From Methylophaga nitratireducenticrescens (lineage in GTDB: Bacteria; Pseudomonadota; Gammaproteobacteria; Nitrosococcales; Methylophagaceae): a stretch of DNA of 64,000 bases. Positions within the stretch are counted from its first letter, which is position 1. Every line of letters begins with the position of its first letter. The notes beneath the pieces are model-generated. The model made no database searches and was not told the origin of the DNA. It saw nothing but the letters and a program-made list of their open reading frames with translations. This document shows positions 21,758-29,688 of this stretch, one piece after another. Made by a program: the position numbers and the translations under genes. Where the stretch lies: NCBI RefSeq assembly GCF_000260985.4, contig NC_017857.3, positions 372,001 to 436,000 of the forward strand, given 5' to 3'.

Positions 21758-24889
<3,132 letters not shown>

Positions 24890-24966: not shown

Positions 24967-25344
24967 TTAGTTCAACATAGATTGCACTTTGTCGCGCAAT
25001 TGAGCATCGCTTTGGATGGCCAAGGCGATATTGCTATATGTTTCTACATCCAGACCTTCGTTTTGAACGGTTTGGACCATTTTCTGGCTGGCTTCCTGTT
25101 GTAACTGGGCAGCTTGGTCAGGATCTTCAGTACTTTCCAGACGGCCTGAATATTCATTACGAATTTCTTCAAGATCACCCTGAACATCGGCAAATTTTTG
25201 CAACTCAGTATCACTGAAATCAGTTGCTGGAGCTGTTTCAGGCATTGGCGCTTGAGGAGCTGCCTGTTGTGGTTGTTCTGCAAAAGCAGGAGCACTTAGA
25301 CCCAGGGCCATTAATATTGAAGCAAAAATAGCTGTTTTTTTCAT
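24967..25344 (-). CDS. DUF4168-family exported protein
   Basis: A 125-residue secreted protein: signal peptide MKKTAIFASILMALGLSAPAFA, a Gln/Pro/Ala-rich linker (residues 23-40), then the DUF4168 domain (DFSDTELQKFADVQGDLEEIRNEYSGRL, ending in YSNIALAIQSDAQLRDKVQSML), which is mostly helical and charged. The function of DUF4168 is not known. AAGGAAA precedes ATG 25344; a longer frame starting at 25392 is not needed. A sigma-54-like promoter is at 25385-25400, and the divergent neighbour is a sigma-54 activator operon, so this gene is a probable target of it. Confidence 0.88.
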   Translation of the reverse strand: MKKTAIFASILMALGLSAPAFAEQPQQAAPQAPMPETAPATDFSDTELQKFADVQGDLEEIRNEYSGRLESTEDPDQAAQLQQEASQKMVQTVQNEGLDVETYSNIALAIQSDAQLRDKVQSMLN

Positions 25345-25384
25345 GGTGTTTTCCTTTATTGATTGTGGAACACATATAAGCAAT

Positions 25385-25400
25385 TGCGACAATCATGCCA
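25385..25400 (-). promoter_or_regulatory. Predicted sigma-54 (RpoN) promoter of the DUF4168 gene
   Basis: On the minus strand TGGCATGATTGTCGCA matches the -24/-12 consensus TGGCACG-N4-TTGCA at 10 of 12 positions, with exactly 10 bases between GG and GC. It leaves a leader of about 30 bases before ATG 25344. Further upstream, TTTGGCCCATGTGCCATAAA (25505-25524) is an imperfect palindrome that could be an activator site shared with the divergent kinase operon. Confidence 0.65.
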
Positions 25401-25549
25401 GAAATCCACATATTTATAAGTCAATGTATTTATTAGATAAAATATTCTGTGTTAGATTTTATGAAGTCTATTTGTAGCTTGACGGGTGCCTTAGTGTGTG
25501 TCAATTTGGCCCATGTGCCATAAATTCAAGTTTGTTAAAAGGGCATTGA

Positions 25550-27010
25550 ATGCGTTTTCCATCCATTTTCAGCAATCTGCGATTAGTGTTGATCATGCAG
25601 GTTGCATTGCCAGTGTTACTGGTGCTGGCGATGATCCTCGCCATTGGTCTCTCGATGGTGGGCCAATTTATCGAGGAAAGAATGCAGCGGGATTTACAGC
25701 AAGTGGCTCGAACCATTCACTTACCTGTTTCTCAGGCACTGGAACGACAGGATCTGGATCAGTTACAAAACAGTATGGCATCGGTTTTTGGTATTACCGA
25801 GGTATATGGAGCCTATTTATTCGATGCTAATGGCAGGCGTTTAAGCAGTTTTGGTGTCGTTAATCCGACAAAAGAACAGGCGACGGATGCACTTGAACAG
25901 ATAGTCGAAGGTGAATTTGCACAATATGAACGGATTCGTGGCCGTAATGTGTATTCCTTTTTTATGCCTATATTTGATGCGACTGGCCAGCCAAATGGCC
26001 TATTACAGGTAACACGTCGGCGCAGTGATATTGATCGTGAGCTGACCGAATTAAAATATTGGGCCTGGGGCGGCTTTGGTCTGGTGTCCTTAATTATTCT
26101 CGGGGTTATTACCTATTCGCATCAACGTGCCATTGAAACGCCATTGCAGAAGTTGGTTGAAAGCATGCGGCGAGTAAGCCAGGGGGATAGAGAGCACCGG
26201 GCAGCAGAACAGGGACCAATTGAAATTAGCCAATTGGCAAAAGGACTCAATGGCATGCTCAATGCAATTGAAGCTGCAGAGAAAAGCGAAGCTCAGCAAC
26301 GTTCCGCCCGGGAGCAGATGGCAGAAAGACTCAGGCAAACTGAAACCATGGCAGCGCTTGGACAATTATCGGCCGGTGTCGCTCATGAATTAGGTGCACC
26401 ACTCACAGTGGTTGATGGACGAGCCAGCCGATTATTAAGGCGGCTGGAAAATGAAAATGACGTAAAAGAATTAAATGAAATTCGTCAGCAGGCAGCCAGA
26501 ATGACCTCGATTATTCAGCAATTACTCAGCTTTGGCCGTTCATCGCGTGCTGAATTTCGAGAACTTGATGTGACGTCATTGATCGAAAGGGCCGAAGCAT
26601 TGTTGGCCAATCAAGGTTATCGAGTCAACCTTGTTAAGGGATCCATGGCAACAATTAAAGGCGATTCATTAAGCCTGGAACAGGCTTTGATCAATTTATT
26701 ACGCAATGCCTGTCAGGCCTGTCCTGATGGGCCGGTTGAACTCTCTTGGGAACAGGGTGGAAAACAGTTACAAATCCATGTAGATGATGCTGGCCCTGGT
26801 ATTAACGAAGAGCAGAAAACCCAGATTTTTGATCCCTTTGTCACGACCAAAGCGCCGGGTGAAGGCAGTGGTCTGGGGCTGGCTATTGTGAAACGGATCT
26901 TGCGAGAACATCAGGGGGAGGTTGTTTTGAGTCATAGTCCACTGGGTGGCGCCAGATTCAGTCTGATTTTACCGTTAGTTTTAACAACAGATTCCGGAAC
27001 AACCGCATGA
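25550..27010 (+). CDS. Sensor histidine kinase
   Basis: A 486-residue inner-membrane kinase. Transmembrane helix 1 is at about residues 12-40 ([25 protein letters not shown]), followed by a periplasmic sensor region of about 110 residues, helix 2 near 170-190 ([19 protein letters not shown]), a HAMP segment ([22 protein letters not shown]), a coiled coil, and HisKA with the H-box [23 protein letters not shown] near residue 272. The HATPase domain has N (NLLRNACQA), G1 (DDAGPGI) and G2 ([11 protein letters not shown]) boxes. It overlaps the response regulator gene by 4 bases. The ligand is unknown; position between a metal pump and DUF4168 gene suggests envelope or metal stress. Confidence 0.92.
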
Positions 27011-28434
27011 CCACAAAACAGAATAAAAATTTACCCATCCTGTTGATAGAAGATGATCAGGCGTTAGCCCGACTGATTTCAGATGAGCTGGAAGCTGAAG
27101 GCTGGAATCTGGAGATTCATCATCAGCTTCAATCGGCTCTGGACTGGCTCAACATTAATCAACCGGCTTTGATTGTTACTGATTTGCGGTTGCCTGATGG
27201 CAATGGAATGCAGGTGGTTGAGCAGGTCGTCACCCACTGGCCGGAAGAACAACGACCAGGGCTTATCGTTATTACGGCATTTGGCAGTGTGCGACAGGCA
27301 GTGCAGGCTTTACAGGCGGGTGCTGATGACTTTCTCACCAAGCCTCTGGATTTGGAACATTTTTTGCTGGCGGTTGAACGGGTGGTCGCTACCCGTAAAT
27401 TACATGATGAGCTGTTTCAATTTCGCAAGCTCAACCGGCAGCCTGCCTTTCATCAGATGTTTGGTCGCAGTGAAGCCATGCGTAATTTATTTGAGCAGAT
27501 TAAAGTTATTGGCCGGGCTCAGGGGCCGGTATTGATTAATGGCGAGAGTGGAACCGGTAAAGAACTGGTCGCCAAAGCATTACACGCAGAAAGTGATCGT
27601 GCTGACGGGCCATTTTTAGCGGTGAATTGTGCCGGCATTCCGCAAGAATTATTGGAGAGTGAGTTTTTTGGTCATGCAGCAGGCTCATTTACCGGTGCTA
27701 ACAAAGCCCGCAAAGGGTTATTACAGGAAGCCAATGGGGGCAGTTTATTACTGGATGAAATTGGTGAAATGCCAATGGCATTGCAGGCAAAATTATTACG
27801 CGCCTTGCAGGATGGATCGATTCGTCCGGTGGGCCATGATACCGAAGAAAAAGTGGATGTCCGTATTATTGCGGCCACCCATCGGGATCTGAAACAAAAA
27901 GTTTATGAAGGCAGTTTTAGGGAAGATTTATTCTATCGTATGGAAACCTTTGCTTTATCAGTTCCTCCATTACGGGACCGTGAAGAGGATAGGGAAATTC
28001 TGGCACAGCAGTTTTTACAACAACTGGTAGTGGCTCAGGGACGCAAAATTCAGGGTTTCAGCGATAAGGCACTGGACATTATTCGTGACTATGCCTTTCC
28101 TGGCAATGTCAGGGAGCTACAGAATGTCGTGGAGAGAGCGTTTGCCTTTTGCAACGAAGACTGGGTGCAACCGCAGCATTTACCAACGCGTTTACTGGAA
28201 AATCAACCGACCCAACCGGCGATGGCAAGCCCTGAAACGGATAGGCAAAATGATCAGTTATTGGCCGGTGCTGTATTGCCAACCCTGGATCAGTTACAAA
28301 AACGTTATGTAAATATGGTTTTAAAAGAGGTGGACGGTAATAAACGTCGCGCCGCTGCGTTACTGGGAATTGGTCGTCGTACTTTGTATCGCTGGCTGGA
28401 TGAGGAAACTGATGAGGCAGAAGATACCGCTTAA
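27007..28434 (+). CDS. Sigma-54-dependent NtrC-family response regulator
   Basis: A 475-residue activator. REC domain (residues 8-125) with phospho-Asp in IVTDLRLPDG (about D60) and acidic pocket EDD at 17-19. AAA+ domain (about 150-385) with Walker A GESGTGKE, the sigma-54 contact loop as GSFTGA (usual GAFTGA), Walker B GGSLLLDEIGEM and arginine-finger region FREDLFYRM. C-terminal Fis-type helix-turn-helix (NKRRAAALLGIGRRTLYRWL). It must act at RpoN promoters; the one at 25385-25400 is the closest candidate. Its start overlaps the kinase stop (ATGA). Its stop overlaps the convergent WG-repeat gene by 4 bases. Confidence 0.94.
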   Translation: MTTKQNKNLPILLIEDDQALARLISDELEAEGWNLEIHHQLQSALDWLNINQPALIVTDLRLPDGNGMQVVEQVVTHWPEEQRPGLIVITAFGSVRQAVQALQAGADDFLTKPLDLEHFLLAVERVVATRKLHDELFQFRKLNRQPAFHQMFGRSEAMRNLFEQIKVIGRAQGPVLINGESGTGKELVAKALHAESDRADGPFLAVNCAGIPQELLESEFFGHAAGSFTGANKARKGLLQEANGGSLLLDEIGEMPMALQAKLLRALQDGSIRPVGHDTEEKVDVRIIAATHRDLKQKVYEGSFREDLFYRMETFALSVPPLRDREEDREILAQQFLQQLVVAQGRKIQGFSDKALDIIRDYAFPGNVRELQNVVERAFAFCNEDWVQPQHLPTRLLENQPTQPAMASPETDRQNDQLLAGAVLPTLDQLQKRYVNMVLKEVDGNKRRAAALLGIGRRTLYRWLDEETDEAEDTA

Positions 28435-29564
28435 TCCCTCGAGATATAACCCCATTTATCACGAATTTTTATTGCCGCCAAACCTTCATTGAATGGTTGA
28501 GCATGTTCGAATTGGGGTTCGATAACCACTTCACCTTGCCGGTTAATATAACCATACTGCCGGTAGTTGTAGGTTATCACTGCCAGACCATCCGAGAATG
28601 AATATGCCCAGACATATTCCGGTTCAATTTCAATCTGGCCATCGGTATTGATATAGCCAACCTTGGCGTTTTTCTCCACCCGGGCCAAACCTTCGCGGAA
28701 ATTCCAGGCATCATCAAAATAGGGCTTAACTACTATTTCTCCACTGGAATCAATAAAACCGTATAGCCCACTTTGTTTAATGACGGCAAAACCTTCACCA
28801 AATGCTTTGGCTTGATCAAATTGAGGACGTATCAGCCAGCCGCCCTTTTTATCGATATACCCCCACTTTCCATCAACAGAAACAGCCGCAAGTCCTTCAC
28901 GAAATACCCGGCTCTGGTCAAATGCTGGCTTGATTAACCGTTTTCCCTCGGCATCGATATATCCCCATTCTTCGCCAACTCTAACGGCCGCACGTTGTTC
29001 GCTGAAGATCTGAATTTCATCAAATTGTGCCTTAATGACTTCTTCTCCCTCAGTATTCAGATAGCCCCATTGATCATTAACTCTGAAACCCGCCAGACCT
29101 TCAGAGAAAACGCCCACATTGTCATATTTGGCCGGGATTACTTCCTGACCAGAAGTATTAAGAAAGCCCCAGGAGCCATCCTTGATAAAAGCAGCATATC
29201 CTTGTTTAAAAGATTGAATTTTAGGATAGCTAGGCTGCAGTATTATTTTTCCATTTCGATCCACAATGCCCCATAGATTATTTCTACGATAGGCAGTGAC
29301 GCCGCTGTCCAAATCATTAATTTCATCGGCAGTGAACAGAATGTCGCCATCAGGATTGATCATGGCAAATTGTGCAATGCCCTGATCGGCAATCATTACC
29401 GCTGCCCGGTCATTTTTAAAACTGCCGGCATCATCAAAAATAAGATCAATCTTCAGGTTTTCCACATAAGCCATGGTAGGCTGAACAGCATGACTGGCAG
29501 AGATGCCTGTGAATGTCAGCGCTGACAGAATATATCCCAATGTTTTAAATAGCTTTCTACTCAT
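28431..29564 (-). CDS. Exported WG-repeat protein
   Basis: A protein of about 377 residues with signal peptide (RKLFKTLGYILSALTFTGISASHA) and then nine WG-type repeats of about 33 residues. Each has W/Y-G-(Y/F/I)-(I/L)-(D/N)-x-x-G followed by I-x-P-x-F-D and F-x-E-G-L-A, for instance KWGYIDKKGGWLIRPQFD. Repeats start about residue 80 and run to the C-terminus, the last ending KWGYIS. Such beta-rich repeat proteins occur in bacterial exported proteins of mostly unknown role. Start is ATG 29564 or GTG 29576 four codons earlier. It overlaps the end of the convergent NtrC-type gene. A palindromic mini repeat lies upstream at 29689-29748. Confidence 0.9.
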   Translation of the reverse strand: MSRKLFKTLGYILSALTFTGISASHAVQPTMAYVENLKIDLIFDDAGSFKNDRAAVMIADQGIAQFAMINPDGDILFTADEINDLDSGVTAYRRNNLWGIVDRNGKIILQPSYPKIQSFKQGYAAFIKDGSWGFLNTSGQEVIPAKYDNVGVFSEGLAGFRVNDQWGYLNTEGEEVIKAQFDEIQIFSEQRAAVRVGEEWGYIDAEGKRLIKPAFDQSRVFREGLAAVSVDGKWGYIDKKGGWLIRPQFDQAKAFGEGFAVIKQSGLYGFIDSSGEIVVKPYFDDAWNFREGLARVEKNAKVGYINTDGQIEIEPEYVWAYSFSDGLAVITYNYRQYGYINRQGEVVIEPQFEHAQPFNEGLAAIKIRDKWGYISRD

Positions 29565-29688
29565 AACCTCACCCACTTTCCGGGAATTATTCCCATGATA
29601 AGTCTGTTCTCGCTCGGGTGAAAACCTGGTGAAAATCTAAAATGGGAAAACGCTCTTTAAAGGCTCTGTTTAGCTTTCAGCCTTACCC

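Follow-up and report, generated by a model that had tools for sequence, protein, structure and literature searches.

A predicted sigma-54-dependent two-component circuit at a DUF4168 gene in Methylophaga and other Gammaproteobacteria

In Methylophaga nitratireducenticrescens, a histidine kinase and an NtrC-type response regulator are encoded divergently from a gene for a small DUF4168 protein, and the interval between them carries a predicted -24/-12 promoter and a predicted tripartite enhancer. We read this arrangement, with high confidence, as a sigma-54-dependent envelope two-component circuit in which the regulator would act through the enhancer to activate DUF4168. The genes and motifs, their positions and conservation, their linkage and the grouping of the regulators are direct observations. 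The best reading of them is that the circuit appears to belong to an undescribed sigma-54 envelope-response family present in many Gammaproteobacteria.

Results

The gene pair and its interval

We analyzed a 64,000-nucleotide stretch of M. nitratireducenticrescens DNA (the window), in which the circuit comprises the following features.

24967..25344, minus strand: DUF4168 gene, 125 aa; helical domain preceded by a signal peptide (by eye); ATG at 25344.
25385..25400, minus strand: predicted -24/-12 sigma-54 promoter, TGGCATGATTGTCGCA; 9/11 consensus positions, GG-N10-GC spacing, 56 bp before the ATG.
25497..25520, minus strand: predicted tripartite enhancer (UAS), TGGCACATGGGCCA AAT TGACACA; palindrome part 25507-25520.
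25550..27010, plus strand: sensor histidine kinase, 486 aa; HAMP, HisKA and HATPase_c domains, with an N-terminal membrane and periplasmic part by eye.
27007..28434, plus strand: NtrC-type response regulator, 475 aa; Response_reg, Sigma54_activat with GSFTGA, and HTH_8 (Fis-type HTH).

A preliminary description made from the sequence alone had placed a DUF4168 gene opposite a histidine kinase and an RpoN-type activator with a GSFTGA loop, across a 205-bp interval. Domain matches bear out all of these identities (for DUF4168, Pfam PF13767 at 60.1 bits against a cut-off of 25.8), and the interval spans 25345-25549. The DUF4168 start codon is preceded by AAGGAAA. The regulator gene overlaps the kinase gene by 4 bp, and its product has the features of the NtrC family (bEBP): an acceptor Asp in IVTDLRLP, the GSFTGA loop of the AAA+ domain and the Fis-type HTH. 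The genome encodes nine strong Sigma54_activat proteins, the window regulator counted in, which imply that it also encodes RpoN. For the N-terminal part of the kinase we obtained a weak CHASE8-like match below cut-off and a best E of 0.11 against PDB sequences; a structural model of residues 1-250 was set aside at a mean pLDDT of 50.5.

Two further genes flank the circuit. A CusA/CzcA-type heavy metal efflux pump (21767-24889; TIGR00914, 1477 bits) converges on DUF4168, and a WG-repeat protein (28431-29576; PF14903) converges on the regulator gene. By eye, the efflux pump is also the neighbor in G017, G016 and G020, but not in G011, G019 or G013.

The promoter and the enhancer

The sigma-54 consensus is TGGCAC-N5-TTGCW, and we scored candidate promoters over its 11 positions; by this measure the E. 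coli zraP promoter scores 10/11 at -51 and the zraS promoter 9/11 at -47. The sigma-54-type element that had been proposed before DUF4168 is real: TGGCATGATTGTCGCA, read from 25400 to 25385, has the exact spacing and scores 9/11. Dinucleotide shuffles of the upstream region reach 9/11 at -75 to -45 in 1.5% of 400 trials, so that the single match is by itself only suggestive, and the preliminary description was right to call for conservation. Conservation, not the single match, is what decides the case for this predicted promoter. The expected transcription start lies near 25374, in agreement with the earlier estimate.

The enhancer consensus, TGRCACATGNGYCA-N3-TGRCMCA, consists of an imperfect palindrome (TGRCACATGNGYCA, scored over 14 positions), three bases and a third half-site. 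An imperfect palindrome had already been pointed out at 25505-25524; it exists, but the conserved block is slightly offset, at 25497-25520, and includes the third half-site, TGACACA, which had gone unmentioned. The enhancer is centered 113 bp upstream of the -24 element. When the single 3.135-Mb contig of the genome is scanned with the 24-base pattern, the window site is the one perfect match, and one other place matches with 3 mismatches. The palindrome alone with 2 mismatches was rejected as a search pattern; it was too loose, with 135 places against 49 for a reversed-pattern control.

Conservation in Methylophaga and its order

The sensor part of the kinase is present in 11/24 Methylophaga genomes, in every case with a divergent, adjoining DUF4168 gene. 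DUF4168 itself occurs in 13/23 Methylophaga genomes searched, 11 of which are the kinase genomes; the other two have a DUF4168-like match without the kinase, partial in G015 and double-domain in G003. The G003 protein resembles a 252-aa protein with two DUF4168 matches that is encoded, unlinked to the kinase, in G013 (L121, G013:C3:122965-123678). Across the order, the kinase was found at E ≤ 1e-60 in 13/63 genomes. Two of these (G026 and G027) lie outside Methylophaga, in a second family, and have DUF4168 divergent from the kinase, an enhancer scoring 14/14, and promoters that score 10/11 and 9/11 at a greater distance from the start codon (-100 and -104).

Loss of the promoter element in relatives that keep the gene pair had been named beforehand as the result that would refute the proposal. 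The element is kept in 13/13 such relatives: a promoter of 9-10/11 and a palindrome of 12-14/14 are present in 11/11 Methylophaga and 2/2 second-family genomes with the gene pair. Among the 11 Methylophaga intervals, mean column identity is 0.84 in the promoter block and 0.91 in the enhancer block, versus 0.50 in the 110 alignment columns between them. The motif consensus was written after these 13 Methylophaga and second-family intervals had been read, so that they are descriptive, and the class sample and the later-fetched loci described below serve as the test. One Methylophaga genome (L023, G018:C50) has its kinase coding sequence divided between two overlapping frames and containing one in-frame TAG; the DUF4168 promoter and enhancer are kept.

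Linkage and motifs across the class

In an even draw of the class, DUF4168 occurs in 35/369 genomes and the kinase, at E ≤ 1e-70, in 13/369, all among those 35 (Fisher p 5e-15, uncorrected for kinship). The two genes adjoin in 11 of the 13 and lie apart in G332 and G424, which have the two weakest kinase matches. The kinase cut-offs of 1e-60 and 1e-70 were chosen by hand, and the class and phylum counts come from at most the best few candidates per genome. Of 55 domain matches listed in the class search, we scored 51 as separate upstream regions, with start codons picked by script score. The remaining four are two that already belong to the Methylophaga set (the window's own and G013:C1), the additional domain of the two-domain G013 protein, and a tandem duplicate within L101.

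Ten of these 51 further DUF4168 loci are linked to the regulator. Seven are co-linear, with kinase, regulator and DUF4168 on one strand (L086-L091 and L098), L096 and L101 are divergent, and L093 has a regulator without a kinase. By the tool's family labels, and with the later-fetched loci included, regulator-DUF4168 linkage is found in 13 families, 12 of them with the kinase.

The motifs go with this linkage. In the class sample, a promoter of at least 9/11 at -75 to -45 precedes 8/10 linked versus 4/41 unlinked DUF4168 loci; an enhancer of at least 12/14 accompanies 4/10 versus 0/41, and one of at least 11/14 accompanies 7/10 versus 3/41. Of the 23 linked loci first examined, 11 of which are Methylophaga and hence non-independent, 19 have a promoter of at least 9/11 in the narrow range, where shuffles predict 0.26, and 22 have one somewhere within 350 bp; 17 have an enhancer of at least 12/14, where shuffles predict 0.17.

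Several linked loci depart from the common pattern. The L088 promoter scores 10/11 and lies outside the narrow range, at -161. In L096, a small Gly/Pro-rich exported ORF stands between DUF4168 and the kinase, and a 10/11 element and an 11/14 enhancer precede that ORF; no promoter was found directly before DUF4168. L101 has a promoter and no enhancer of at least 12/14 near the pair, and L086 has none of that strength between regulator and DUF4168. Beside the L093 DUF4168 gene, the regulator (L093:4545-5954) has a worn receiver without the acceptor aspartate (IVNGLPLG versus IVTDLRLP), and the promoter is kept at 10/11; no kinase match was found in this 8.2-kb stretch. The L093 regulator is possibly a phosphorylation-independent version.

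Four unlinked DUF4168 loci have the promoter. L085, L097 and L120 may be targets at a distance, because their genomes also hold a linked module, and L085 has an enhancer match 463 bp upstream of its promoter. The fourth, L114, is in a genome without the kinase at cut-off.

A search of the phylum found the kinase in 14/398 genomes, all of the same class, and 11 new regions were taken for study. In five of these 11 later-fetched loci, DUF4168 is divergent from the kinase; an element of at least 9/11 lies 54-120 bp before the start codon in 5/5, and an enhancer of at least 12/14 lies in the interval in 4/5. Three of the five belong to one genus (L227-L229) and have GA or GG in place of the -12 GC; the full GG-N10-GC is present in 2/5.

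Other candidate targets

No DUF4168 gene was found within the fetched stretch of the other six later-fetched loci. Together with G332 and G424, these make up one family by the tool's labels, which we call Halomonas-like because a named Halomonas plasmid record has the same kinase at 34% identity; DUF4168 is 12 kb away on that record and likewise distant in G424. In the six loci and G332, an element of at least 9/11 and an enhancer of at least 11/14 lie beyond the regulator gene. These motifs precede a small acidic ORF, by eye of lipoprotein type, in L226, L230, L231 and L232; in L200, L233 and L234 they precede an acyltransferase homologue (in L200, PF01757 at L200:5320-6351), with an element of 10/11 in L200 and L234. 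The acyltransferase is a possible exchanged target. Weak cases are L230 and L232, in which the -12 GC is GA, and L233, in which the enhancer is ~750 bp away; around the G424 pair no enhancer of at least 12/14 was found in 19.5 kb. DUF4168 is not always a target, since in two Halomonas-like genomes checked it is unlinked and without the motif (L092, L094 and L128).

A second candidate stands opposite the kinase in five of the co-linear loci (L086, L087, L089, L090 and L098), where the product of the divergent gene is ~120-130 aa long, looks exported and has two invariant cysteines. Four of these five proteins were scanned against Pfam, and none of the four had a match above the threshold. Near the kinase start stands an enhancer of 11-13/14; the element that faces the two-cysteine gene scores 9-11/11. 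The weakest of these promoters are those of L090 (TGCAACACCCATTGCA or TGGTACGGTCCTTGCG) and L098, in which the -12 GC is changed to GA. The two-cysteine family was not found in 38 Methylophaga and related genomes, a set that included no known holder of it.

The proposal that the kinase switches on one exported protein fits the window genome, with its one perfect enhancer site, but not the five relatives with a second exported candidate or the sister regulators with similar sites before other envelope genes.

Grouping of the regulators

In tree 1, a single branch (99/97) contains the regulators of 30 loci and excludes eight same-genome paralogues; in tree 2, that branch (100/99) stands apart from four of those eight together with E. 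coli ZraR and AtoC. Within it, the 22 DUF4168-linked regulators separate from the eight Halomonas-like ones (100/98 in tree 1, 99/97 in tree 2). Because similarity to the window proteins was the criterion for choosing the tree rows, the grouping is partly by construction; the trees include 5/11 Methylophaga loci. The loop reads GAFTGA in 23 of the 30 aligned regulators and GSFTGA, as in the window, in three; the other four differ at F or T. Of the 24 aligned rows that span its site, 23 have the acceptor Asp, the exception being L093. The choice of the first M as start trimmed this region from 6/30 rows, and tblastn found the receiver in those six. As the sequences indicate, the circuit is one branch of a regulator group whose predicted enhancer/promoter unit recurs before DUF4168, two-cysteine, Gly/Pro-rich exported, lipoprotein and acyltransferase genes.

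The DUF4168 protein

An AlphaFold model of the window DUF4168 protein, built with seven close sequences, has a confident helical domain (residues 45-124) after the signal peptide and a loose linker, with helices at 45-70, 75-95, 100-112 and 114-124 and ten-residue pLDDT means of 86-96 from residue 41 on. Foldseek returned no match to this fold in the PDB at E ≤ 0.001, and a sequence search of the PDB gave a best E of 0.17. Among the 50 matches listed by a second structure aligner, with Z scores of 4.6-5.9, ZraP (3lay) appears at Z 4.9 (rmsd 5.0 over 68 residues), amid unrelated helical proteins. In an open library of 5.39 million papers, neither the word DUF4168 nor the accession PF13767 was found; the control name DUF1471 was. 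We offer as a guess, and a tentative one, that DUF4168 acts in the periplasm as a stress effector or accessory protein, of the functional type of ZraP and CpxP.

Plasmid records with DUF4168-like matches number 94, of which 93 are rhizobial (Sinorhizobium, Rhizobium, Ensifer and Neorhizobium) and one is from Halomonas. Among these records, the kinase was found at E ≤ 1e-50 only on the single Halomonas one.

Comparison with known systems

Like ZraPSR (HydHG) of E. coli and Salmonella, the window circuit has a small exported protein encoded divergently from a kinase and an NtrC-type regulator, with a -24/-12 promoter ~50 bp before the exported gene. In the parts of the literature we consulted, ZraR is described as acting at the divergent sigma-54 promoters of zraSR and zraP and as having a narrow regulon (PMC4987338, PMC7657598). 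Unlike ZraPSR, the window has DUF4168 as its effector and a different enhancer, placed close to the kinase start; E. coli ZraPSR has sigma-54 promoters on both sides, whereas the window has one, of 9/11, on the effector side only. From these sequences, the window circuit is predicted to work like ZraPSR and yet to be separate from it, because the sensor, the regulator branch, the enhancer, the effector and the kinase-side promoter all differ.

The best NCBIfam scores are those of AtoSC (401.7 bits for the regulator with AtoC, 180.4 bits for the kinase with AtoS, in the kinase half only), but they come nowhere near the respective cut-offs, 714 and 646, and the regulator tree separates AtoC; the flanking genes that we read in the window include none of ato type. 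GlrR (QseF) is likewise an NtrC-type regulator at sigma-54 promoters. Its site is TGTC-N10-GACA according to a table in PMC4987338, whereas the window site is TGRCACATGTGYCA, and the GlrR score is 334 against a cut-off of 763. More generally, envelope genes under sigma-54 are a known theme: in the portions consulted, a general survey presents sigma-54 as a controller of the bacterial exterior, with promoters near envelope and lipoprotein genes, and places AtoC-like activators first among activator classes (Francke et al., 2011; PMC3162934). The main text of that survey makes no mention of Nitrosococcus, Marinobacter or Chromohalobacter, and our literature search returned nothing combining Methylophaga, RpoN and two-component systems.

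Alternative explanations

The alternative that survives best, which we regard as a real if lesser possibility, is that the enhancer serves mainly for autoregulation of the kinase-regulator operon and that DUF4168 activation is secondary. In the window, the palindrome and with it the enhancer come to within 29 bp of the kinase start codon, so that a regulator bound there would occupy or adjoin the promoter of the operon itself. In Methylophaga, in the second family and in 5/7 co-linear loci (L086, L087, L089, L090 and L098), whatever the divergent gene, ~20-50 bp separate the enhancer from the probable kinase start downstream (distances measured by hand, with the relatives' starts unfixed), and by eye six Methylophaga loci have a TTGAC-like stretch immediately upstream. 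However, 6/7 co-linear loci have an enhancer of at least 11/14 before DUF4168, including L088 and L091, which have none of that strength near the kinase, and no element that faces the kinase scores above 7/11 in the window interval or above 8/11 in the remaining 12 of the order. Autoregulation and DUF4168 activation are compatible, and the enhancer position, which most other loci with an enhancer there roughly share, suggests control by the regulator of its own operon as well.

It is quite unlikely that the window holds ZraPSR proper, a zinc-linked response to envelope stress in which DUF4168 would be a diverged ZraP. The layout matches, with an exported protein divergent from kinase and regulator and a sigma-54 promoter at equal distance, and a metal efflux pump of the CusA/CzcA type adjoins DUF4168 in the window, but by eye it is not the neighbor in three relatives. 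DUF4168 has a weak local match to ZraP (E 0.012), yet this covers residues 1-69 only, mainly signal peptide and linker, and the structural score of ZraP lies within a run of unrelated helical proteins. Further, the sensor part matches ZraS only at E 1.5, the regulator is 37% identical to ZraR and falls outside its branch, and the NCBIfam equivalog scores are far below cut-off (134 versus 479 for ZraS, 322 versus 760 for ZraR). The E. coli zra interval has no such enhancer, its best site scoring 9/14, and no element facing the kinase in the window interval exceeds the 7/11 given above.

That the -24/-12 match is fortuitous or inherited similarity, and that DUF4168 is transcribed from a sigma-70 promoter, is very unlikely: a lone 9/11 match is unremarkable given the shuffles, but the element persists in all 13 intervals of the order while the Methylophaga spacer diverges, recurs in other families with a different gene order, and goes with linkage to the regulator.

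Discussion

In the circuit that we propose, the kinase would sense a periplasmic or membrane condition and phosphorylate the NtrC-type regulator, an oligomer of which would bind the tripartite enhancer ~113 bp upstream of the -24/-12 element. Looping of the DNA would then allow the GSFTGA loop of the AAA+ domain to open RpoN-polymerase at 25385-25400, and transcription would begin near 25374. The DUF4168 protein would be exported and fold as a small helical periplasmic domain. From the enhancer position near the kinase start, the regulator may also control its own operon.

A broader interpretation seems to us evenly poised between right and wrong: that the circuit represents an undescribed clade of gammaproteobacterial sigma-54 envelope two-component systems, in which a portable cassette of enhancer (TGRCACATGNGYCA-N3-TGRCMCA) and promoter stays with the regulator and the exported effector is exchanged between lineages, being now the helical DUF4168 protein, now the two-cysteine protein, the Gly/Pro-rich protein, the acidic lipoprotein or a membrane acyltransferase. 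On this view DUF4168 would serve an envelope stress response in the periplasm, as its effector or feedback subunit. The presence of different exported genes behind similar enhancers would suggest envelope proteins that do equivalent jobs.

The predicted enhancer and promoter and their cognate regulator give DUF4168 its first regulatory context, and any condition that turns this promoter on would point to the signal to which DUF4168 belongs. If the broader interpretation is true, the DUF4168 envelope stress response would be as distinct from Cpx and Zra as those two are from each other.
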